The notes under the pieces were generated by a model, which was not told the DNA's origin, searched no databases, and saw only the letters and a program-made list of their open reading frames with translations. Shown piece after piece: positions 4,737-39,968 of a stretch of DNA of 64,000 bases. How positions within the stretch are numbered: position 1 is the stretch's first letter; each line of letters begins with the position of its first letter. A program made the position numbers and the translations under genes. Source of the stretch: Brevundimonas diminuta (GTDB lineage Bacteria; Pseudomonadota; Alphaproteobacteria; Caulobacterales; Caulobacteraceae). Location: NCBI RefSeq assembly GCF_022654015.1, contig NZ_CP073063.1, positions 1,054,001 to 1,118,000 of the forward strand, in the 5' to 3' direction.

Positions 4737-6149
4737 ATGATCGCACGCCTTCGCCCCGTCCCGTTCGACCTCGGTCCCGTTCATTTCGTCGGCATCGGCG
4801 GCATCGGCATGAGCGGCATCGCCGAGATCATGCTGAAGATCGGCTATTCGGTGCAGGGCTCTGACGCCAAGGCGAGCGCCAATACTGAGCGGCTGGAACA
4901 ACTGGGCGCCAAGATCTTCATCGGCCACGACGCCGCCCATGTGGGCGAGGGCGTTTCAGCGGTGGTCTATTCGACGGCGGTCAAGGCCGACAATCCCGAG
5001 ATGAAGGCGGCCCGCGAGCGCCGCATCCCGCTGGTGCGCCGGGCCGAGATGCTGGCCGAGCTGATGCGGCTGCAGTTCTCGATCGCGGTTGGCGGAACCC
5101 ACGGCAAGACGACCACGACCTCTATGGTGGCGGCCCTGCTGGATGCGGCGGGCCTGGATCCCACGGTGGTCAATGGCGGCATCATCAACGCCTATGGCAC
5201 CAACGCCAAGGTCGGCGACGGCGACTGGATCGTGGTTGAGGCGGATGAGTCGGACGGCAGCTTCCTGCGCCTGAAGTCGACGGTGGCCATCGTCACCAAC
5301 ATCGATCCCGAACATCTGGACCACTACGGCGACTTCGACGGGGTGCGCAAAGCGTTCGTCGATTTCGTCGAGAACATCCCCTTCTACGGCTTCGCCGCTG
5401 TCTGCCTGGACCATCCGGAGGTGCAGAAGCTGGTCGCCGCCATCGATAACCGGCGGCTGGTGACCTACGGGGTCAATCCGCAGGCCATGGTGCGGGCTGA
5501 TAATGTCGAGATGGGGCCCGACGGCTGCCGCTTCGACGTGGTCATCCAGAATGGCGAAACCCATGTGATCTCGGGCGTCCATCTGCCGATGGCCGGCTGG
5601 CACAATGTGTCGAACGCCCTGGCCGCCATCGCCGTGGCGCGCGAGCTGGACGTGTCGGACGACGCGATCCGCACCGGCCTTGCCGGCTTCGGCGGGGTCA
5701 AGCGGCGCTTCACCACCACGGGCGTCGTGGGCGGCGTTCGCATCGTCGACGATTATGGCCACCACCCGGTCGAGATCGCCGCCGTGCTGAAGGCCGCGCG
5801 CCAGGTGACCGACGGTCGCGTCATCGCCGTGGTTCAGCCGCACCGCTACACGCGCCTGCGCGACCTGATGGACGAGTTCTCGACCTGCTTCTCGGACGCC
5901 GACGGCGTGATCGTGGCCGACGTCTATCCGGCGGGCGAACAGCCGATCGAGGGCGTGGACAAACACGCCCTGGCCGACGGAGTGCGCCGCTACGGCCACC
6001 GTCACGTCCAGGCCTTGGAGAACGCCGCTGTCCTGCCACGCCTGATCAAGGATGAGGCCAAATCCGGCGACGTTGTCGTGCTGCTGGGCGCCGGCGACAT
6101 CACCAGCTGGGCCTATGGCCTGCCGGCGCAGCTGGAGGCTCTGGCGTGA
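4737..6149 (+). CDS. murC: UDP-N-acetylmuramate--L-alanine ligase
   Basis: Adds L-alanine to UDP-MurNAc, the first step of the peptidoglycan stem peptide, in the cytoplasm. The 470-residue product has the N-terminal Rossmann motif [12 protein letters not shown] (about 19-30), the Mur-ligase ATP loop [10 protein letters not shown] (about 119-128), and the C-terminal domain with [10 protein letters not shown]. The ATG at 4737 is chosen because the family N-terminus starts a few residues before the glycine motif; upstream in-frame starts give an Arg-rich extension. The shine-dalgarno (GAGGCG) is weak. It opens a tightly packed cluster, murC-murB-ddl-ftsQ-ftsA. The gene upstream is a divergent catalase and not murG. 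Confidence 0.97.
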
Positions 6150-28703: not shown

Positions 28704-29729
28704 ATGGCCTTGATCGCCTCCAGACTTACGCCGCTGGCCGCCGCGCTCGTTCTGTCGGCCTGCGCCGCACCCCATATTCAGCCGCCGTTGACGCCGCCGC
28801 CGGGCTTTGTCGGCGCCCATGTCGAGGATCGTGCCTTGGTCATGTCGGACGGCGCGCGCCTGCCGTATCTGCATTGGGGTCCAAAGGATGGGGCGCCCTG
28901 GGCGGTGATCGTGGCCCTGCACGGCATGAACGATCACGACGCCAGCTTCCGTCTGGCCGGCCCCTGGTGGGCCGAGCAGGGGATAGAGACCTGGTCTTAC
29001 GATCAGCGCGGCTTCGGCGGGGCGCCGGGGCGGGGCGAATGGGCCGGGCAGCAACGGATGACCGATGATCTGCGCGAGATCACCGCGATGGCGCGCGGCC
29101 GCTATCCTCATGCCGTCATCGCCGTGGTGGGCGAGAGCATGGGCGGGTCTGTCACCGCCGCCGCGTTCGGCTCCGACAATCCCCCGGATGCGGACCGCAT
29201 CGTGCTGCTGGCGCCCGGCGTCTGGGGCTGGTCGACGCAAGGACCGTTGAACAGCACGGCGCTGAACATCGCAGCGCGGGCGCTGGGCGATGTGGCGCTG
29301 GAACCGCCGGAGTTCATCACCCGCGACATCCACGCCTCATCCAATACGCTGGAGCTGATCCGCAACGGGCGCGATCCGAGGAGCATCCTCGCTACCCGGT
29401 TCGACACCGTCTATGGGCTGGTCGATCTGATGGAGACCTCGTCGCGCAGCCTGGGGCGCATCCGAGGCGACGCCATCCTGATGTACGGCGCCCACGATGA
29501 AGTGGTGAAGAAGGGGCCGATGAAGCTGGCGCTGGAGCGGGCCGAGCGGGAGGGCGGGACGCTGCGGACCGCCTGGTATCCGAACGGCTGGCATCTGCTG
29601 AACCGCGATCTGGACGCCGAGATCGTCTATCGCGACGTCGTCTCGTGGTTGAGAGATCCGAAAGCCCCTCTGCCGTCCGGTGCGCCGGCCGTCTTGCCGG
29701 AGCTTCAGGCGGGCGAGGCGCGCCCTTAA
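28704..29729 (+). CDS. Lipoprotein alpha/beta hydrolase (monoacylglycerol lipase-like)
   Basis: A 341-residue exported hydrolase. A lipoprotein signal ends in VLSACAAP (Cys about 20). The serine hydrolase fold shows VALHGMNDHDASF (oxyanion loop), nucleophile Ser in VGESMGGSVTA, Asp in LMYGAHDEVV and His in YPNGWHLLNRD. It resembles the lysophospholipase/monoacylglycerol lipase group. The ATG at 28704 lies 16 bases after the glycosylase gene. Its stop codon overlaps a perfect CtrA box that probably serves fliF. Confidence 0.87.
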   Translation: MALIASRLTPLAAALVLSACAAPHIQPPLTPPPGFVGAHVEDRALVMSDGARLPYLHWGPKDGAPWAVIVALHGMNDHDASFRLAGPWWAEQGIETWSYDQRGFGGAPGRGEWAGQQRMTDDLREITAMARGRYPHAVIAVVGESMGGSVTAAAFGSDNPPDADRIVLLAPGVWGWSTQGPLNSTALNIAARALGDVALEPPEFITRDIHASSNTLELIRNGRDPRSILATRFDTVYGLVDLMETSSRSLGRIRGDAILMYGAHDEVVKKGPMKLALERAEREGGTLRTAWYPNGWHLLNRDLDAEIVYRDVVSWLRDPKAPLPSGAPAVLPELQAGEARP

Positions 29730-29741
29730 GCGGGTCTTAAC
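29726..29741 (+). promoter_or_regulatory. CtrA binding site upstream of fliF
   Basis: A full consensus TTAA-N7-TTAAC; the first TTAA overlaps the stop codon of the upstream hydrolase gene (27727 style overlap: stop is 29727-29729). It is 77 bases before the fliF start. In Caulobacter the fliF operon is a class II flagellar operon switched on by CtrA, which fits this position. Confidence 0.85.
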
Positions 29742-29817
29742 GCGACGTTTACCATCCAGGCGGCATTTTCTGCCTAGCGGGGCGTTCGTGTCTCCCGCGA
29801 GTAGGGGGCGGGGACGC

Positions 29818-31458
29818 GTGGGCGGCTTCACAGCGGCGTTGCAGAAGTTCGGGATCGGCCGTCTGGCTGCGGTCCTCGGCGTCGCCGCGGGTGTGGCCGC
29901 CGTGCTGGTCGCCGTCATGCTGCGCGTGGGGCAGGCGCCGGACGCGCTGCTTTATTCCAATCTTGATCTGCGCGAAGCCAGCGAGATCAGCGCCGCCCTG
30001 GATCAGGCCGGCATCAAATATTCGTCCAAGGGCGACGGCTCGACCATCATGGTCAACCGCGACGAGGTCGGCACGGCGCGGATGCTGGTCGCGGGCAAGG
30101 GTTTGGTCACGTCCGGATCGGTCGGTTACGAGTTGTTCGACAGCCAGTCGGTGCTGGGCCAGACCGAGTTCCAGCAGCAGTTGAACGAACAGCGCGCCCT
30201 GCAGGGCGAGTTGTCGCGCACCATCATGTCCATGCGCGGCATCACGGCCGCTCGCGTCCACATCACCATGCCGCGCCGCGAGATGTTCACCTCGGCCGCC
30301 GGCGAACCGACCGCTGCCGTTCTGGTGGGGCTGGGCGGGCGTGACCTGACCAGCGACCAAGTGCGGGCGATCCGCAACCTGGTGGCCTCGTCCGTGCCGA
30401 ACCTGAAACCCGACCGCGTCACCGTGGCGGACCAAACCAACCGCACCCTGGCGGCCGGGAGCGACGACGGAACCTTTACCTCCGCGTCCGCCGCAGAGGC
30501 CAAGGGCAATACCGAGAGCCAGCTTCAGGCGCGCATCAAGGACATCGTCGAAGGCGTCGTGGGCGCCGGCGCCGCTCGCGTCCAGGTGACGGCTGATATC
30601 GATCAAAGCCGCGCTACGACCCAGGAAGAAAAGTTCGATCCCGATGGTCAGGTCGTCCGCTCGACCACGACCAACGGTTCGCAATCCGCAGACAATAGCG
30701 TCCAGCCAGACGGCGGCGTGACCGCGACCAACAATATCCCCGGCGGCGCTGCGCCCGGCGCGACGCCGGCCGGTTCGACCAACTCGGAAAACGCCGAGAC
30801 GACCAACTACGAAATCTCCAAGACTACGACGACCACGACCAAGGAGCCGGGTGAGGTCAAGAAGCTGGCCGTCGCCGTCGCGGTCGACGGCAAGTGGACG
30901 CCGGCCAAGGACGGCAAGGGCGAGCCGACCTATGCGCCGCGCACGGCCGAGGAGATCGCCCAGATCAAGTCTCTGGTCGCCGCCGCCGCCGGCATCGACG
31001 AGACGCGCGGCGACAAGATCGAGGTCATCAACGTCCGCTTCAACCACGACACGGGCATCGAGGGCGGTCTGGACGGCAAGTCGTCGCTGCTGGACTTCTC
31101 CAAGAACGACATCATGCGTTTCGTCGAGCTGGGCATTCTGACGGTCGTCGCCTTGCTGCTGATCTTCTTCGTGCTGCGTCCTCTGCTGAAGACGGCGGCG
31201 GGCGGCGGGGCCAATCTGCCGGCGCTGGCGGGCACCAACGGCGTGCCGGTCACCACCGTGGCGACCACGGTGATCGGCCCGGACGGCCAGCCCCAGCTGG
31301 TTCAACTGCCGGCGCCCAGCGAAATGGAACAGAAGATCGACATCGCCCGCATCGAGGGTCAGGTGAAGGCGTCGTCGGTCAAGAAGGTCGCCGACTTCGT
31401 TCAGTCGCATCCCGATGACGCGGCCGGCATTCTGCGGACCTGGGTGGCCGAAGGCTGA
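29818..31458 (+). CDS. fliF: Flagellar MS-ring protein FliF
   Basis: Builds the MS ring, the membrane base of the flagellum. The 546-residue protein has membrane helices at about 14-35 and 440-465, a periplasmic ring-building region with [19 protein letters not shown] and [15 protein letters not shown], and a C-terminal cytoplasmic tail that binds FliG ([17 protein letters not shown]). GTG at 29818 is chosen: AGGGGGCGGGGAC lies just upstream and the product then begins with the short family N-terminus [15 protein letters not shown] at 29788 would add 10 residues. First gene of the fliF-fliG-fliH-fliN-flbD operon. Confidence 0.95.
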
Positions 31459-32492
31459 TGGCGAAGCTGGTCAACAAGAAAGCTTCGATCGACGATCCCA
31501 ACAAGCTGTCGGGACCGGAGAAGGCCGCCGTCATCCTGCTGGCGCTGGGTGAAGAGCATACCGCCCTGTGGGAGCGGCTGGACGACGACGAGGTCAAGGA
31601 AATCTCCCAGGCCATGGCGACCCTAGGCAACGTCAGCGCCGAGGCCGTCGAGGCCCTGATGATCGAGTTCGTCTCGGGCCTGTCCGGCTCGGGCTCGGTC
31701 ATGGGCAGCTACGAGCAGACGCAAAAGCTGCTGGCCGCCTTCCTGCCCAAGGATCGCGTCGATGGCCTGATGGAAGAGATCCGGGGGCCGGCCGGTCGCA
31801 CCATGTGGGACAAGCTGGGCAATGTGAACGAGGCCGTTCTCGCCAACTATCTGAAGAACGAATATCCCCAGACCGTCGCCGTCATCCTGTCCAAGGTGCG
31901 CTCGGACCACGCCGCCCGCGTCCTGACCAGCCTGCCGGAAGACTTCGCCCTGGAATGCGTCCAGCGGATGCTGCGCATGGAGCCCGTGCAGCGCGAGATC
32001 CTGGACAAGATCGAGGCGACGCTGCGCACCGAATTCATGTCGAATCTGGCGCGCACCTCCAAGCGCGACAGCCACGAGATGATGGCCGACATCTTCAACA
32101 GCTTCGACCGCCAGACCGAGGCCCGCTTCATCGGGGCTCTGGAAGAGCGCAATCGTGAATCGGCCGAACGCATCCGCGCCCTGATGTTTGTCTTCGAAGA
32201 CCTGTCCAAGCTGGACCCAGGCGGGGTGCAGACCCTGCTGCGCGCCGTGGACAAGGATTCGCTGGGCCTGGCGATGAAGGGCGCGTCCGAAGGACTGCGC
32301 GAGATGTTCTTTTCCAACATGTCCGAACGCGCGTCCAAGATCATGCGCGAAGACATGGAGTCGATGGGGCCGGTGCGTCTGAAGGATGTCGACGCCGCCC
32401 AGATGGCCATGGTCCAGGTCGCCAAGGATCTGGCCGCCAAGGGCGACATCATGCTGGCCGGTCAGGGCGCCGACGACGAGTTGATCTACTGA
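31458..32492 (+). CDS. fliG: Flagellar motor switch protein FliG
   Basis: Rotor protein that contacts the stator and sets torque and rotation direction. The 344-residue product has the N-terminal FliF-binding domain ([20 protein letters not shown]), the middle domain with EHPQT-like [12 protein letters not shown], and the C-terminal torque helix region with [19 protein letters not shown], whose charged residues match the family. Its ATG shares one base with the fliF stop. Confidence 0.97.
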
Positions 32493-32493
32493 C

Positions 32494-33156
32494 ATGACCC
32501 AGTCCCCTGAAATCCGGCGCCTCTTCGCCTTCGACACTGAGTTCGACGCGGACGGCACGGTCGTGCGCCCCGGCGCCTGGACGCCGGCCAAGCGCTCCTA
32601 TCTGCCGACCGAGGTCGATGCCCTGGTCGCGCAAGGGCGTCTGGAAGCGCGCGAACAGGCGCTCAGCGAGGTCGAAAACATCCGCGCCATGGCCCTGAGC
32701 AACATCGCCCAGGCTGTGGCCTCGGCCATGCCGACCCTGAAGGCTGTGGCCCAGGCGCACCGCGAACAGGCCGCTGACTTGGCCTTGGCTGCTGCGCGCG
32801 CCATCGCCGGGGCCGCTCTGGACCGGTTTCCGCATGCGCCGCTGAAAGCTGCTTTGGAACTGTTGGCGCAGGAAATCGACGCCTCGCCGCGTCTGGTGGT
32901 TCGCGCCTCGGGACTGGATGACGAGGCGCGCGGCCTGATCGAGCGCGCCTGCGCCGACAGCGGCTTTACCGGCGTGGTCGCCTTCCGCGATGAACCGGGC
33001 ATGGCCCAGGCCGCCTTCCAGTTGGAATGGGCCGATGGGCGCGCTGATCACGATCCGCAAGGCTCGGCCGACCGCGTCGCTGAGGCCCTGACCGCCGCCT
33101 TGGCCGCCGAGTCTGGACACGCCGAAACCCTTCCCGTCGACAGGAGCATATTCTGA
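32494..33156 (+). CDS. fliH: Flagellar export regulator FliH (FlbE)
   Basis: A 220-residue protein in the position of FlbE in Caulobacter, the FliH-type regulator of the FliI ATPase at the export gate. Residues 45-95 form a long Ala/Gln/Glu-rich helix with repeated small-residue spacing, and the C-terminal domain (about 115-200) fits the FliH/HrpE fold. Sequence conservation in this family is low, so much of the call rests on operon position between fliG and fliN. It starts 1 base after the fliG stop and its stop overlaps fliN. Confidence 0.85.
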   Translation: MTQSPEIRRLFAFDTEFDADGTVVRPGAWTPAKRSYLPTEVDALVAQGRLEAREQALSEVENIRAMALSNIAQAVASAMPTLKAVAQAHREQAADLALAAARAIAGAALDRFPHAPLKAALELLAQEIDASPRLVVRASGLDDEARGLIERACADSGFTGVVAFRDEPGMAQAAFQLEWADGRADHDPQGSADRVAEALTAALAAESGHAETLPVDRSIF

Positions 33157-33488
33157 TGGCATCCGACGACCTGGCGCTGGAGGAATTCTCCGGCCTTTCG
33201 GGCCTGCCGCCCCTGGACGACAGCGGCGAAAAGAGCGCCGCCGACCTGGCCACCGTCTTCGACGTGCCGGTCAACATCTCGGCCGTTCTGGGCAAGTCGC
33301 ACATGTCGGTGGCCCAACTGCTGAAACTGAACAAGGGCTCGGTGCTGGAGTTGGACCGCAAGGTCGGCGAGGCGATCGACATCTTCGTCAACAACCGCCT
33401 GATCGCGCGCGGCGAGGTCGTCGTCGTCGACGACCGGCTGGGCGTGACCATGACAGAAATCATCAAGACCGAGGATAGCGGCGCCTGA
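33156..33488 (+). CDS. fliN: Flagellar motor switch protein FliN
   Basis: C-ring protein, 110 residues. The SpoA/FliN domain is clear from VFDVPVNISAVLGKSHMSVA, LNKGSVLELDRKVGEAIDIF and NNRLIARGEVVVVDDRLGV. A 25-residue acidic N-terminus precedes it. ATG overlaps the fliH stop (TGATG), so translation is coupled. Confidence 0.96.
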   Translation: MASDDLALEEFSGLSGLPPLDDSGEKSAADLATVFDVPVNISAVLGKSHMSVAQLLKLNKGSVLELDRKVGEAIDIFVNNRLIARGEVVVVDDRLGVTMTEIIKTEDSGA

Positions 33489-33527
33489 TCGGCGACGCGC
33501 TCGAAACAGGGATAGAGGAGAAGAACG

Positions 33528-34940
33528 ATGCGTCTTCTGGTGGTAGGCAGACTGAGCGGCCAGCTCGCTTCGGCGGTGAAGATGGCCATGGCGCACGGCG
33601 CCAAGGTCAATCACGTCGAGCGCGCCGACCAGGCGACCGAGCAACTGCGCCGTGGGCAGGGCGCCGACCTGCTGATGGTCGATTATCAACTGGACATCGC
33701 CGCCCTGATCGCCGCCAACGAGGCCGAGCGGATCACCATTCCGGTCGTGGCCTTCGGCGTCGACGCCGATGCGCGAGAGGCGGCCGCCGCCATCAAGGCC
33801 GGCGCCAAGGAGTTCATTCCGCTTCCGCCGGACGCCGAACTGATCGCCGCCGTCCTGTCGGCCGTCGCCGACGACGAAAAGCCGATGATCTCGGCCGACC
33901 CGTCGATGAAGGCGGTGCTGCAACTGGCCGATCAGGTCGCGCGCTCGGAAGCCTCGATCCTGATCACCGGCGAAAGCGGCGTCGGCAAGGAGGTGATGGC
34001 GCGGTATCTGCACGAGCATTCGCGCCGGTCCGAGCGCCCCTTCATCAGCGTCAACTGCGCCGCCATTCCCGACAATCTGCTGGAATCCGAACTGTTCGGT
34101 CACGAGAAGGGCGCCTTCACCGGCGCCGTCGCGCGCCGCATCGGCAAGTTCGAGGAGGCCGACGGCGGTACGCTTCTGCTGGACGAAATCTCCGAGATGG
34201 ACGCCCGGCTTCAGGCCAAGCTGCTGCGCGCCATCCAGGAGCGCGTCATCGACCGCGTCGGCGGCTCCAAGCCGGTCTCGGTCAACATCCGCATCATCGC
34301 CACCTCGAACCGCGATCTGGCCAAGGCCGTGGCGGAAGGCACCTTCCGTGAGGACCTGCTGTATCGCCTGAACGTGGTGAACCTGCGCCTGCCGTCCTTG
34401 CGCGAGCGGCCCGGCGACATCGTGGTTCTGGCCGACCACTTCATCAAGAAATACGCCGCCGCCAACGGCGTGCCGGTGCGTCCGATTTCGGCCGCCGCGC
34501 GTCAGGCCATTTCGGCCCACCGCTGGCCGGGCAACGTCCGCGAGCTGGAAAACGCCATGCACCGCGCGGTGCTGCTGGCCACCGGCCCCGAGATCGACGT
34601 CGACGCCATCCGCCTGCCGGACGGTCAGCCGCTGGGCGGCATGGGCGCCGGCATGATGGCGGGACAGGCCTATGAGGCGCCGCAAGCCGGGGTGGCCGCC
34701 CGCGCCGCCCAGGCGGCCAACGCCGTGACCCGCAGCTTCGTGGGTCAGACTGTGGCGGCGATGGAGAAGACGCTGATCCTGGACACCCTGACCCACTGCC
34801 TGGGCAATCGCACCCATGCGGCCAACATCCTGGGCATCTCGATCCGCACCCTGCGCAACAAGCTGAACGAATACGCCGACGAGGGCACGGCCATTCCGGC
34901 GCCGATGAGCGGCGTTTCCGCCTCGGGCTACGCGGCCTGA
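33528..34940 (+). CDS. flbD: Sigma-54-dependent flagellar transcription activator FlbD
   Basis: A 470-residue NtrC-family activator that turns on late flagellar genes and represses fliF in Caulobacter. Order: degenerate receiver (1-115), AAA+ domain with Walker A GESGVGK (148-154), the sigma-54 contact loop GAFTGA (195-200) and Walker B LLLDEISEMD, then a Fis-type helix-turn-helix (HAANILGISIRTLRNKLNEY). The receiver keeps Asp52 but lacks the N-terminal acidic pair and the conserved Lys, which agrees with control by FliX and not by phosphorylation. GAGGAG precedes the ATG. A sigma-54 promoter before flgF in this window is a likely target. Confidence 0.95.
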   Translation: MRLLVVGRLSGQLASAVKMAMAHGAKVNHVERADQATEQLRRGQGADLLMVDYQLDIAALIAANEAERITIPVVAFGVDADAREAAAAIKAGAKEFIPLPPDAELIAAVLSAVADDEKPMISADPSMKAVLQLADQVARSEASILITGESGVGKEVMARYLHEHSRRSERPFISVNCAAIPDNLLESELFGHEKGAFTGAVARRIGKFEEADGGTLLLDEISEMDARLQAKLLRAIQERVIDRVGGSKPVSVNIRIIATSNRDLAKAVAEGTFREDLLYRLNVVNLRLPSLRERPGDIVVLADHFIKKYAAANGVPVRPISAAARQAISAHRWPGNVRELENAMHRAVLLATGPEIDVDAIRLPDGQPLGGMGAGMMAGQAYEAPQAGVAARAAQAANAVTRSFVGQTVAAMEKTLILDTLTHCLGNRTHAANILGISIRTLRNKLNEYADEGTAIPAPMSGVSASGYAA

Positions 34941-34944
34941 ACCC

Positions 34945-35850
34945 ATGCGCGCACCCGTGGAGCGCCGACGCGTCCTGACGGGGTTGGCCGCCTTGAGCGC
35001 GGTCGCCTGTTCGCCGCGCGCGGAATCACGCCCTGCGGCGCCCGCCCCTGTGTCAGACGAGGTCATTGACCTGTCGGACCTTGAAACGCGCAATGGCGGT
35101 CGTCTCGGCTTCGTCGTTCAGGACGCGGCGACAGGGCGAAAGCTGGTTTGGCGCGGCGACGAACGCTTCGTCTATTGCTCGACCTTCAAGATGTATCTGG
35201 CCGCCGCCACGCTTTTGCGGGTGCAGGCCGGGCAAGAGCGCTTGGATCGCCGCATCCCGATCACGGCGGCTGACATGATCAACCACGCTCCGGTCACCGA
35301 GCCCGCCGTCGGCTCCAGCCTGACGGTCGAGCAGTTGCTGAAGGGCGCGGTGGAGGTCAGCGACAACCCCGCCGCCAATCTGTTGCTGAAGGCCATGGGC
35401 GGGCCGTCGGCGATGCAGACCTTCTATCGCGGCATCGGCGACGACAGCACTCGCTCGGACCGTTTCGAGCCGGAGATGAATCGTCTGGACGGCGACAAGG
35501 ATACGATCCTTCCCAACCAGTCGGTCGCCAATCTCCAGCGTCTTTTTCTGGATCCCGCCTCGCCCCTGACCGCAGCGTCACGCGCCCTGTTGCTGCAATG
35601 GATGACCGATACGCCCACGGGTCAGAATCGTCTTAGGACTGGGGCGCCTGCGGATTGGCGGGTAGCGCACAAGACGGGGACGGGAGGCTATGGGCCGACC
35701 AATGACATCGGCCTGTTGTATCCGCCGAACGGCCAACCCGTGATTGTCGCCGCCTATTACCATGCGACTGGGGCGACGTCGGACGACGCCAATGCGGCCG
35801 TGATCGCCGAGGCGACGCGTCGCGCACTGAAGGTCTTGGGTCGTGGCTGA
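34945..35850 (+). CDS. Class A beta-lactamase with Tat-like signal
   Basis: A 301-residue serine beta-lactamase. All class A motifs are present: STFK (79-82, active Ser79), SDN (139-141), omega-loop Glu175 in RFEPEMN, and KTG (243-245). Cys78 precedes the active Ser, but the partner Cys after KTGT found in class A carbapenemases is Gly here, so that disulfide is absent. The N-terminus ERRRVLTG resembles a twin-arginine signal, followed by a weak lipobox AVAC at Cys22. It starts 4 bases after flbD and its stop overlaps the flhA start by 8 bases, so it is embedded in the flagellar operon, which is unusual. Spectrum cannot be read from sequence. Confidence 0.93.
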   Translation: MRAPVERRRVLTGLAALSAVACSPRAESRPAAPAPVSDEVIDLSDLETRNGGRLGFVVQDAATGRKLVWRGDERFVYCSTFKMYLAAATLLRVQAGQERLDRRIPITAADMINHAPVTEPAVGSSLTVEQLLKGAVEVSDNPAANLLLKAMGGPSAMQTFYRGIGDDSTRSDRFEPEMNRLDGDKDTILPNQSVANLQRLFLDPASPLTAASRALLLQWMTDTPTGQNRLRTGAPADWRVAHKTGTGGYGPTNDIGLLYPPNGQPVIVAAYYHATGATSDDANAAVIAEATRRALKVLGRG

Positions 35851-37960
35851 TGCGCCGATCCTGATGAAGGACGGCATGGCGCGCCCTACGGGACGCGACG
35901 TGATCGGCTGGCTGAACCGCGGCGAAGTGCTGATGGCGGTCGGCGTGATCGGCGTGATCATGCTGCTGATCCTGCCGGTGCCCAAGTTTCTGCTGGATCT
36001 GCTGCTGGCCTTCTCGCTGGTGTCCAGCGTGCTGATCCTGATGACCGCAGTGATGATGAAGCGGCCGCTGGACTTCGCCATCTTCCCGACGGTGTTGCTG
36101 GTCTCGACCTTGTTCCGTCTCGGTCTGAACCTGGCCTCCACGCGCCTGATCCTGACCCACGGCCAGGAAGGTCACGATGCGGCCGGTCAGGTCATCAACG
36201 CCTTCGGCCAGCTGATGATGGGCGGCAACTTCATCATCGGGGTGATCATCTTTGCGATCATTCTGGTGGTGAACTTCGTCGTCATCACCAAGGGTTCGAC
36301 CCGGATTGCCGAAGTGTCCGCCCGCTTCACCTTGGACTCCATGCCGGGCAAGCAGATGGCCATCGACGCCGATCTGTCGTCGGGCCTGATCACCGAGGAC
36401 CAGGCCAAGCTGCGTCGCAAGGAGCTGGAGCAGGAATCGACCTTCTTCGGCGCCATGGACGGCGCCTCCAAGTTCGTGCGTGGCGACGCCGTCGCCGGGC
36501 TGATCATCACCTTCATCAACGCCATCGGCGGCATACTGATCGGCACGCTACAACACGGCATGCCGGCGATGGAGGCCGCCAACACCTATGTCCAACTGAC
36601 CATCGGCGATGGTCTGGTGACTCAGGTGCCGGCCATCATCATCTCGATCGCCGCGGGCTTCCTGGTGTCCAAGGCCGGCGTCGAAGGCACGGCGGACAAG
36701 GCGATGGTGACGCAGCTGGCGACCAATCCCGTGTCGCTGGGCGTGGTGTCGGGCGCCGCCGGTCTGATCGGTCTGATCCCCGGCATGCCGCTGATCCCGT
36801 TCGCGGCCCTGGCCATCGGCTCGGGCTTCATGGCCTGGCGGCTGGGCCGCAATCGCTTGAAGCCTCAGCCGACAGAGGCGGAGATCGCGGCGGCGGCTGC
36901 GGCCGCAAAACCCAAGGAAGACGTCGAAGAGCCAATCGCCAACGTGCTCACCATCGACGAGGTGAAGATCGAACTCGGCTATTCGCTGCTCAGCCTGATC
37001 AACGATCTTGAAGGGCGCCGCCTGACCGACCAAATCCGCGCGCTGCGCCGATCGCTGGCCCAGGAATACGGCTTCGTCATTCCCCAGGTGCGCATCCTCG
37101 ATAACATGCGCCTGCCGACCCAGGGTTACGCCATCCGCATCAAGGAGATGGAGACGGGGGCGGGCGAGGTGCGGCTGGGCCACCTGATGGCGATGGATCC
37201 GGCCGGTCGCCAGGTCGAACTTCCGGGCGAGCATATGCGCGAACCCGCCTTCGGCCTGCCGGCGACCTGGATCGAGGAAGGTCTGCGCGAGGAGGCGACG
37301 TTCCGGGGCTATACGTTGGTCGATCCGTCGACGGTCCTGACGACCCATCTGACCGAGATCCTGAAAGACAATATGGCCGATCTGCTGTCCTACGCAGAGG
37401 TGCAGAAGCTGCTGAAGGAACTGGGCGCCGAAGAGAAGAAGCTGGTCGAGGAACTGGTGCCCAGCGTGGTCACCGTCACGACGCTGCAGCGGGTGTTGCA
37501 GTCTCTCCTGCGCGAGAAGGTGTCGATCCGCGACCTGCCGGCGATCCTGGAAGGCCTGGCCGAGGCCGCGCCGCACAGCTCCAGCGTCACGACCCTGGTC
37601 GAACACGTTCGTGCGCGCCTGGGCCGCCAGCTGTGCTGGCAGAACAAGGACGGCGAAGGGGCCCTGCCCATCGTCACCCTGTCGCCGGAATGGGAAAACG
37701 CCTTCGCCGAAAGCTTGATCGGCAATGGCGAGGACAAGCAGCTGGCCATGGCGCCGTCCCGCCTCCAGGACTTCATCCGCGCCGTGCGCGACACCTTCGA
37801 GCGGATCGCCATGACGGGCGAGAATCCGGTGCTGCTGACTGGCCCGATGACGCGGCCCTATGTGCGATCGATCATCGAACGTTTCCGCGGCCAGACCGTC
37901 GTGATGAGCCAAAATGAAATCCATCCCAAGGCCCGGCTGCGGACCCTGGGCCAGGTCTGA
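35843..37960 (+). CDS. flhA: Flagellar export apparatus protein FlhA
   Basis: Inner-membrane core of the flagellar type III export gate. The 705-residue product has about eight N-terminal helices (28-325) with LLDLLLAFSLVSSVLIL, FPTVLLVSTLFRLGLNLAST and the long loop GFNASTRIAE-like KGSTRIAEVSARFTLDSMPG, followed by the cytoplasmic ring domain. GTG at 35843 overlaps the beta-lactamase stop and gives the family-like MADAPI; an ATG seven codons later is possible. In Caulobacter flhA (flbF) follows flbD. Confidence 0.95.
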   Translation: MADAPILMKDGMARPTGRDVIGWLNRGEVLMAVGVIGVIMLLILPVPKFLLDLLLAFSLVSSVLILMTAVMMKRPLDFAIFPTVLLVSTLFRLGLNLASTRLILTHGQEGHDAAGQVINAFGQLMMGGNFIIGVIIFAIILVVNFVVITKGSTRIAEVSARFTLDSMPGKQMAIDADLSSGLITEDQAKLRRKELEQESTFFGAMDGASKFVRGDAVAGLIITFINAIGGILIGTLQHGMPAMEAANTYVQLTIGDGLVTQVPAIIISIAAGFLVSKAGVEGTADKAMVTQLATNPVSLGVVSGAAGLIGLIPGMPLIPFAALAIGSGFMAWRLGRNRLKPQPTEAEIAAAAAAAKPKEDVEEPIANVLTIDEVKIELGYSLLSLINDLEGRRLTDQIRALRRSLAQEYGFVIPQVRILDNMRLPTQGYAIRIKEMETGAGEVRLGHLMAMDPAGRQVELPGEHMREPAFGLPATWIEEGLREEATFRGYTLVDPSTVLTTHLTEILKDNMADLLSYAEVQKLLKELGAEEKKLVEELVPSVVTVTTLQRVLQSLLREKVSIRDLPAILEGLAEAAPHSSSVTTLVEHVRARLGRQLCWQNKDGEGALPIVTLSPEWENAFAESLIGNGEDKQLAMAPSRLQDFIRAVRDTFERIAMTGENPVLLTGPMTRPYVRSIIERFRGQTVVMSQNEIHPKARLRTLGQV

Positions 37961-38022
37961 TCCCGCCGACTTGGCAGTTTGGCGTTTGACGCGACGACGC
38001 GCCCCGCTAAAGCTCCGCCGTC

Positions 38023-39549
38023 ATGAGTCCGAACCCCCGATCCCAATGGTCGCGCCTGCGCGACTTCATGCGTACGCCGTCGTTGGCCCGGTCCATGTCG
38101 GCGATGCTGGTCCTTGTGTTCGGGCTGTTGATCCTGGTCAATGCGACGACGTTCGTGATGATCCAGCGCACGGCGTCGGTGAATCAGACCATTGAACACG
38201 CCCAGCAGATGCGCCGGGCGGCGCGCACGACCCTGATCGCCATGCTGAACGCCGAGACGGCCCAACGCGGTTTCCTGTTGACCGGGCGCAGCGACTTCCT
38301 CGAACCCTATCGCAAGGCGCAGGCGGACATGGCGCCGGCCTTGGCCTTCCTGGATGAGGGGGCGGCGCTTGACCCGACCCTGAAGGCGACCGTCGACCCC
38401 ATTCATCGCCTAGCCGATCGCAAATGGGCGGAGATGGAGCGCACCGTGTTGCTGGCCCAGCAGGGACGGATTGGTCAGTCGATCCAGTCCGTGCGCTCGG
38501 GCGAGGGCAAGCGCTATATGGACGAGCTGCGCGCGGCTATCGACACGTTCGACGCACTGAAATCCAGACGGATCGAGGATCGACGCATCGCCTCGGAGCG
38601 GTCCGGGGTTCTGACGGTGGCCATGAACGCCATAGCGGGGCTTCTGGTCATCATTCTGGCCTTGCTGTCGGCTTGGCTTGTGCGGCGTTATGTGGCCGAG
38701 ATTCAGGCGGCTCGCGCGACGCTCGACGCCGCCAACGCCAGCCTGGAGGACAAGGTTCGCGAGCGCACCGGCGACCTGATGCGCGCCAACGAAGAGATTC
38801 AGCGCTTCGCCTATATCGTCAGTCATGACCTGCGTGCGCCGCTGGTCAACGTCATGGGCTACACCTCCGAACTGGAGCAGGCGGGCAAGATCGTCGACAA
38901 GGCGATATACGAGGCCGAGAAGACGCGCGTGGTCGATCCCGAGATCGTCACCGCCGTGCGCGAGGAAATGCCCGAGGCCATCGGCTTCATCCGCGCCTCG
39001 ACCGAGAAGATGGACCGGCTGATCAACGCCATCCTGAAGCTGTCGCGTGAGGGGCGTCGCAACCTGCTTCCAGAGCCGCTGGACATGACGACGATGGCTC
39101 AGAACATCGCCAACAGTGTCCATCACCAAACCGAAGCCTCAGGGGCGCGCATCGAGGTGCAGTCGCTGCCGGAGATCGAGAGCGATCGCATTTCGATGGA
39201 GCAGATCGTCGGCAATCTGATCGACAACGCCGTCAAATATCTGGATCACGACCGCCCGGGCGAGATTGTCGTATCGGGCGAGGACGTGCCGGGCGGCTGG
39301 GTCGTCTACCGGATCGCGGACAACGGCCGGGGCATCGCCCCGCGCGACCACGAGCGGATCTTCGAACTCTTCCGCCGCTCCGGAAAGCAGGACCGTTCCG
39401 GCGAAGGTTTGGGGCTGGCGTTCGTCAGAAACAGCGTGCGCCGCCTGGGCGGCACCATCGACGTGGAGTCCGAGCTGGGTAAAGGCTCGACTTTCCTGCT
39501 CAAATTCCCCAAACGACTGATCCTGTCTGAACCCGGAGGCGCGCTGTGA
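38023..39549 (+). CDS. CHASE3 sensor histidine kinase
   Basis: A 508-residue membrane kinase. Helix 1 at about 26-48, a CHASE3 sensor domain (50-195) with MLNAETAQRGFLLTGRSDFL, helix 2 at about 198-221, a short coiled linker, then the kinase with His268 in YIVSHDLRAPLVNVMG, N box NLIDNAVKYLDHD, G1 RIADNGRGIAP and G2 GEGLGLAFVRN. The HisKA hairpin is longer than usual (about 20 extra residues after the His). Its stop overlaps the GTG of the next response regulator, so they are a coupled pair. The signal is unknown. Confidence 0.93.
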   Translation: MSPNPRSQWSRLRDFMRTPSLARSMSAMLVLVFGLLILVNATTFVMIQRTASVNQTIEHAQQMRRAARTTLIAMLNAETAQRGFLLTGRSDFLEPYRKAQADMAPALAFLDEGAALDPTLKATVDPIHRLADRKWAEMERTVLLAQQGRIGQSIQSVRSGEGKRYMDELRAAIDTFDALKSRRIEDRRIASERSGVLTVAMNAIAGLLVIILALLSAWLVRRYVAEIQAARATLDAANASLEDKVRERTGDLMRANEEIQRFAYIVSHDLRAPLVNVMGYTSELEQAGKIVDKAIYEAEKTRVVDPEIVTAVREEMPEAIGFIRASTEKMDRLINAILKLSREGRRNLLPEPLDMTTMAQNIANSVHHQTEASGARIEVQSLPEIESDRISMEQIVGNLIDNAVKYLDHDRPGEIVVSGEDVPGGWVVYRIADNGRGIAPRDHERIFELFRRSGKQDRSGEGLGLAFVRNSVRRLGGTIDVESELGKGSTFLLKFPKRLILSEPGGAL

Positions 39550-39968
39550 CGCAACCCGTCAAAATCATCATGGTCGAAGACGACCACGGCCACGCCAAAC
39601 TGATCGAAAAGAACATCCGCCGGGCCAACATCAACAACGAGATCAAGCATTTCGACGACGGCGGTTCGGCGCTCGATTATCTGTTCAGCGATGAAATCCT
39701 GACCAATGGTCCGCTGCTCATCCTGCTGGACCTCAACTTGCCGGATATGTCGGGCACGGACATTCTGGAGAAGGTGAAGGCCAACGAGCGCCTTCGCCGC
39801 GCGCCGGTGGTGGTGCTGACGACGACCGACGACAAGGTCGAGATCCAGCGCTGCTACGATCTGGGCTGCAACGTCTACATCACCAAGCCGGTGGACTATG
39901 AATCCTTCGCCGGCGCCATCCGTCAGCTGGGCCTGTTCCTGTCGGTGATCCAGGCGCCGGAGATCTGA
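39546..39968 (+). CDS. CheY-like response regulator (Rcp1-type)
   Basis: A 140-residue single-domain receiver. Acidic pocket EDD (11-13), phospho-acceptor Asp62 in [11 protein letters not shown], Thr in VVLTTTDD and Lys in YITKPVDYE. The pattern [17 protein letters not shown] and the long loop before Asp62 are typical of receivers paired with phytochrome-like kinases (Rcp1 type). It starts with GTG overlapping the kinase stop (GTGA). No output domain, so it probably acts by phosphotransfer or protein contact. Confidence 0.93.

Follow-up and report, generated by a model that had tools for sequence, protein, structure and literature searches.

Chromosomal beta-lactamases are usually thought to be constitutive or drug-induced. 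Among described systems, those compared here with the class A beta-lactamase gene of a Brevundimonas flagellar operon (bla) include the PEN and L2 types with a PenR/AmpR regulator (family models NF000320, NF000232 and NF041130), which share enzyme class and motifs with bla and rank second and third among its family matches (243 and 236 bits). The locus differs from these in that bla has no such regulator next to it, sits in a flagellar operon and scores below the subfamily cut-offs among the matches listed. An enzyme 51% identical to bla (locus L181, 3746-4633, minus strand) does have a divergent PenR-like regulator (4773-5813, plus strand; best family PenR). The best PDB sequence matches were 4c6y (E = 1.8e-79) and 5fqm (E = 3.6e-76; labelled GNCA), which have CSTFK and SDN in common with bla and are laboratory proteins without genomic context. 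GNCA (5fqm) is presumably a reconstructed ancestor. On the flagellar side, CtrA of Caulobacter activates the early flagellar set including flbD, and FlbD represses fliF, according to PMC3930126 and PMC3096577. The CtrA box found here before fliF fits CtrA activation as described there for the early (class II) genes of Caulobacter crescentus, the difference being the beta-lactamase that lies here between flbD and flhA. The accessible text on Brevundimonas brasiliensis lists penP, a class A gene of 299 aa, in the resistome and treats it as a resistance gene alone, with its location unmentioned there (PMC10269605); from its length and genus, penP is probably the same gene as bla. A literature search that covered few subscription papers found no paper linking a class A beta-lactamase with the flbD-flhA site.

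We consider it likely that bla encodes an intrinsic Brevundimonas class A resistance lipoprotein, made as a CtrA-timed early (class II) product of the flagellar operon. In the window (the whole stretch of DNA analyzed, 64 kb, from a single-contig genome of 3.21 Mb), bla is an ORF of 301 aa. Its ATG follows the end of flbD by a gap of 4 nt, and the GTG start of flhA lies inside its end with an overlap of 8 nt; an earlier reading of the sequence alone had given both distances correctly, and only its start at 34941 had to be moved, that position belonging to the gap. With Ambler numbers as we assign them, S70-x-x-K73, S130-D-N132, K234-T-G, Glu166 and Asn170 are all present, and the curated class A family model was exceeded, so that the complete enzyme with STFK, SDN, Glu175 and KTG named in that reading was confirmed (Table 1). 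Ser130 and Asn132 were present in 123/123 genus copies, and the STFK motif was counted over 120 because 3 of the 123 copies are fragments without that region. Against named class A subfamilies, bla stayed below every cut-off among the matches listed (25 of 101), for example PEN-Bcc (243 of 540) and classA_carba (182 of 390). The product is expected to hydrolyze beta-lactams by the Ser70-Lys73-Ser130-Glu166 mechanism. By motif-based calls it has a twin arginine and a lipobox cysteine, and the Tat-like signal and weak lipobox seen previously recur in the genus: among bla copies of at least 280 aa, RR was found within the first 20 residues in 114/118, Cys within residues 11-40 in 117/118 and a lipobox-like pattern in 90/118. 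The enzyme would thus be exported folded by Tat and anchored in the membrane as a lipoprotein. In two draft genomes (L158 of G001 and L142 of G088) the bla match is broken by an in-frame TGA or a change of frame, which may be assembly error.

Table 1. Coordinates of the bla gene, its motifs and the surrounding flagellar operon in the window
Feature	Position	Strand	Evidence and remarks
fliF, MS-ring protein	29680..31458	+	ORF; counterparts in relatives; start codon uncertain, with 29788 and 29818, both past the CtrA box, as candidates
CtrA box TTAA-N7-TTAA, probable promoter element of the fliF operon	29726..29740	+	sole perfect match in the 64-kb window
fliG, switch protein	31458..32492	+	ORF; counterparts at least 80% identical in relatives
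flbE/fliH-like assembly protein	32494..33156	+	NF004693 264.5 bits, below cut-off 288
fliN	33156..33488	+	TIGR02480 102.8 bits, cut-off 84
flbD, sigma-54 flagellar regulator	33528..34940	+	NF050807 803 bits, cut-off 750
bla, class A beta-lactamase with predicted Tat and lipoprotein signals	34945..35850	+	NF033103 266.6 bits, cut-off 200; PF13354 146 bits, cut-off 22
bla, twin arginine R7-R8 to lipobox Cys22	34963..35010	+	motif conservation in the genus
bla, STFK (Ser70, Lys73), residues 79-82	35179..35190	+	Ser and Lys in 120/120 covering genus copies
bla, SDN (130-132), residues 139-141	35359..35367	+	kept in 123/123 genus copies
bla, omega loop, Glu166 to Asn170 (raw E175, N179)	35467..35481	+	both in 123/123
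bla, KTG (234-236), residues 243-245	35671..35679	+	kept in 123/123
flhA, export-gate protein	35843..37960	+	TIGR01398 913 bits, cut-off 772; first 8 nt within the end of bla

The operon runs fliF, fliG, flbE/fliH, fliN, flbD, bla, flhA, where the names fliF and fliG are ones we assume from the operon order. Downstream of flhA on the same strand is a CHASE3 histidine kinase gene (38023-39549), which overlaps an ORF (39546-39968) that we take to encode a small receiver-like protein.

Sequence searches of 131 Brevundimonas genomes found the bla protein in 123 and FlhA in 130, and in all 123 gene-bearing genomes bla immediately preceded flhA in the same orientation. Among named species, B. diminuta ATCC 11568, B. 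naejangsanensis, B. pishanensis and B. aveniformis are represented, and a MAG named for B. subvibrioides (L169) has the gene. Conservation at the site, which the sequence-only reading had proposed to look for in relatives, is therefore established for the genus, and a recent insertion in one strain is ruled out. The distance between the alignment ends of bla and flhA was within 150 nt in 121 genomes and 156 nt in G075; locus L136 (G106) stands apart at 683 nt, compared with at most 156 nt in the other 122 copies. FlbD was matched upstream in 121/123, the two loci without a match (L158 and L165) being cut by contig ends. With start codons picked by rule, the interval from bla stop to flhA start was -8 in 41 and -4 in 53 of the 123 genomes (94/123 in total), and that from flbD stop to bla start was -4 to +14 in 108/121. 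The bla-flhA junction had no overlap in 29/123 genomes (47 nt in 14 of these), so translational coupling is not universal. Where the junctions are tight, one message would be translated through flbD, bla and flhA, each start lying at or inside the end of the preceding gene. Among the best 80 of 579 candidates, 19 loci had FlbD and FlhA matches and 61 had neither; the closest was B. vesicularis NBRC 12165 (L184; bla 93%, FlbD and FlhA 99% identical), in a set of named records that may omit the window's own and very near genomes. Several side observations were made in these searches. A close relative carries a second, divergent class A gene outside the slot (L081, G017:C1:3197299-3198039; 39% identical). 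Five genomes (G013, G014, G022, G031 and G056) have a second FlhA-like protein elsewhere (best pieces 38-46% identical), perhaps of another export system. Two of the 19 loci, titled Bordetella sp. (L176) and Alphaproteobacteria bacterium (L171), carry the Brevundimonas operon on contigs that match G076:C187 and G082:C29 of the genus in length and are probably mistitled or loosely titled MAGs; occurrence of the slot outside the family was rejected for these 80 loci.

The eight genus genomes with no bla match bear on a different account of the location, by which the gene is lodged neutrally: the operon would give steady expression, its timing would bring no benefit, and bla would be kept since its loss by frameshift would harm translation of flhA. 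The empty site was readable in four (G109, G062, G090 and G094), in which flbD adjoins flhA and fliF to flhA are all present; the other four have contig ends or no complete flhA at the site. All four readable sites contain an ORF of 18-38 codons that begins at the flbD end and shares 8 or 4 nt with the start of flhA; two of these mini-ORFs retain an RR-x-VLT stretch resembling the signal peptide of bla. Bridging ORFs of this kind were also found in other genera, at 5/17 empty sites where the gap was at least 40 nt, so that their frequency after loss (4/4 in the genus versus 5/17 elsewhere; one-sided p = 0.02) favors neutral lodging, as do the overlaps and tight junctions on both sides of bla. 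However, the active site is kept in 123 copies, which is more than coupling alone would demand, and losses of bla do occur; we regard this account as unlikely. Compensation for loss by other enzymes was also considered and set aside: a PenR-like gene was present in 2/8 genomes without bla versus 5/123 with it (p = 0.059, not significant), and a B3 enzyme in 2/8 versus 14/123 (p = 0.25, not significant).

Control signals were scanned across the operon. The sequence TTAA-N7-TTAA, which we take to be the CtrA box motif, had a mean of 0.01 perfect matches in the shuffled window, and its one occurrence lies 48 and 78 nt before the in-frame fliF GTG codons at 29788 and 29818. Of four other genus members with sequence before fliF, only one (L084) has the exact box there. 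The locus has both the CtrA box before fliF and the gene order through flbD and flhA of a CtrA-controlled class II flagellar operon. By analogy with Caulobacter, CtrA would activate transcription from the promoter of fliF in the predivisional cell, and FlbD would later repress that promoter. A promoter of its own inside flbD would place bla outside the flagellar hierarchy, and promoters of this GC-rich group do often differ from the sigma-70 consensus used for scanning; nevertheless, no sigma-70-like promoter was found by consensus scan in 33000-38100, the gap to flbD is 4 nt, and the 123 genus loci, as far as fetched, had no perfect CtrA site between a point 400 nt ahead of bla and the start of flhA, making such a promoter quite improbable. 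No plus-strand terminator was found in 33000-38100 either. The sequence-only reading had held that all signs pointed to co-transcription with the flagellar genes and hence to cell-cycle dependence. Its embedding in the operon stands (slot in 123/123, mostly tight junctions, CtrA box before fliF alone) and co-transcription is probable; dependence on the cell cycle is suggested by Caulobacter. Since bla lies inside a flagellar operon and is kept there in nearly all of the genus, its expression probably follows the cell cycle rather than responding to the drug.

The slot is stable and its content is not. Identity tables, trees and sliding windows were made with the N-terminal part of FlhA that had been fetched, the full bla tree with all genus proteins except 3/123 shorter than 240 aa (L142, L158 and L165), and the careful trees with 49 rows (bla) and 50 rows (flagellar). 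Against nine clade members the window's FlhA shows 98.6-100% identity, and against 17 sister genomes 92.6-96.4%; the corresponding figures for bla are 92.7-96.3% and 45.8-50.0%, and 77/96 other genus bla copies are at least 60% identical to the window's. The joint FlbD+FlhA tree places the window clade within the sisters, and a tree holding them apart was rejected (AU p = 0.0012, a guide, since the AU-tested groups here and below were named after the identity tables and trees had been viewed). On the bla tree the two are far apart, and holding them together was rejected at a p value to be read in the same way (AU p = 0.00017). Clade and sisters were also grouped by FlbD alone (99/96) and by FlhA alone (97/96), although FlbD alone does not recover the window clade itself as a split. 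In 100-nt windows against four sister genomes, identity was 77-98% in flbD, 45-73% in bla and 74-96% in flhA. For DXS, encoded by another gene of the window, the sisters are 94-98% identical and other genus members at most 92%, with one exception among the sisters (G003, 91%); the DXS match of G033, G115 and G122 contains one or two in-frame TAA codons. The bla gene of the window clade is thus an in-place replacement by an unrelated allele. Similar conflicts appeared elsewhere in the genus, again with p values that serve as a guide: bla rejects the grouping of L152 with L040 and L041 (p = 1.9e-36), which the flanking genes support at 100/98 and 100/99; bla rejects L017 with L134 (p = 4e-5), a group at 99/96 on the joint flank tree and on neither flanking gene alone; and the flagellar genes reject the bla grouping of L035, L036, L040 and L041 (p = 6e-9). 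Such in-place exchange of alleles probably proceeds by recombination within the conserved flanking genes, flbD and flhA.

Beyond the genus, a class A gene was found in the same slot in eleven sampled genomes of six other Caulobacteraceae genera (nine loci plus two). At the nine loci, the bla start precedes the flbD end by 4 or 11 nt or follows it by 2 nt, and in eight of them flhA begins at -8 to +10 nt relative to the stop of bla (389 nt after it in L069). These nine came from 35 non-genus bla loci picked partly because adjacency was already visible, so 9/35 is not a rate. The nine copies do not group with the Brevundimonas copies on the tree. As to a single origin of all slot copies, the tree shows 6 changes, 3 of them forced by starred branches, but a single origin was not rejected by the AU test for all slot copies (p = 0.052), and the value for the 11 from other genera was 0.080, both on 62 rows with Brevundimonas cut to 12 and with seven near-duplicates and L081, L181, L185 and L241 omitted. 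The slot is not a general hot spot, as 60 other Caulobacteraceae sites outside the genus comprised 50 empty sites, 2 with bla and 8 gaps (gaps of at least 300 nt without a bla match). These sites were drawn from 68 among the matches listed, genomes already known to have the slot gene being left out, after 5 at contig starts and 3 more were dropped. In three of these gap sites, all in another genus (L289, L300 and L301), the flbD-flhA slot holds a similar ORF of 123 codons, which we take to resemble diacylglycerol kinase, and an antisense ORF in one of the gap sites is presumably oxidoreductase-like. Two class A enzymes in records of other alphaproteobacterial families (L181 and L185) fall on the tree with the Brevundimonas slot enzymes, and no FlbD or FlhA match was found in their fetched flanks; transfer between lineages is a possible source of the likeness.

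A beta-lactamase under PenR/AmpR control has a divergent LysR-type regulator beside its gene, and none was found at the slot loci tested. Such a gene was present within 700 nt in 40/88 relatives outside the slot (17/27 in the family set and 23/61 in the wider set; L072 and L227 are the same genome twice), and a divergent PenR-like gene was present in 0/28 slot loci tested (among which L073 and L212 are likewise one genome). The query regulator had PenR as its best family, below that model's cut-off. Its best match in the window's genome was 37% identical, and matches at E = 1e-70 or better occurred in 7/131 genus genomes. Five of these seven (G062, G090, G093, G097 and G111) have the PenR/AmpR-like regulator divergent beside a subclass B3 enzyme, and two of the five are without the flagellar class A gene. 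Searches of the window's genome for class B3, C and D enzymes found none reaching cut-off; two further weak class A matches lay above the Pfam cut-off, in ORFs of 512 and 606 aa. The timing of the flagellar program would, in our preferred reading of bla as a resistance enzyme, replace drug-inducible control of the PenR/AmpR type, which is absent here and common among relatives.

Action of the enzyme on the cell's own wall (on muropeptides, or in pole remodeling for insertion of the flagellum, the speculative role raised in the sequence-only reading), with resistance as a by-product, is favored by nothing but the location among flagellar genes and the ancestry that class A enzymes have in common with wall enzymes, and is very unlikely, as Glu166 and Asn170, which are needed for beta-lactam deacylation, are kept in 123/123 copies, the four readable genomes without bla retain fliF to flhA, an allele with only about 50% identity took the place of the earlier one with its flagellar neighbors unchanged, and related enzymes are encoded at sites apart from flagellar genes, in many cases beside a PenR-like regulator.

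A more far-reaching reading, which we offer tentatively and hold to be less probable than its opposite, is that class A beta-lactamases of Caulobacteraceae repeatedly land and are exchanged at the flbD-flhA junction, where foreign alleles are slotted in, the tight junctions on both sides are restored and drug-sensing PenR-type control is given up. Under the flagellar cell-cycle program, protection from beta-lactams would then rise in predivisional, swarmer-fated cells, and the motile daughter would be pre-armed.

The locus provides a clean natural case of a gene replaced within a conserved operon with its junctions preserved. It also places an intrinsic beta-lactamase in the wiring of organelle assembly, and probably of the cell cycle, in a genus that includes isolates from the clinic (for example, PMC10269605). 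This arrangement predicts that drug tolerance would differ between daughter cells, and that mutations affecting motility (in the fliF promoter, ctrA or flbD) would be tied to beta-lactam susceptibility.
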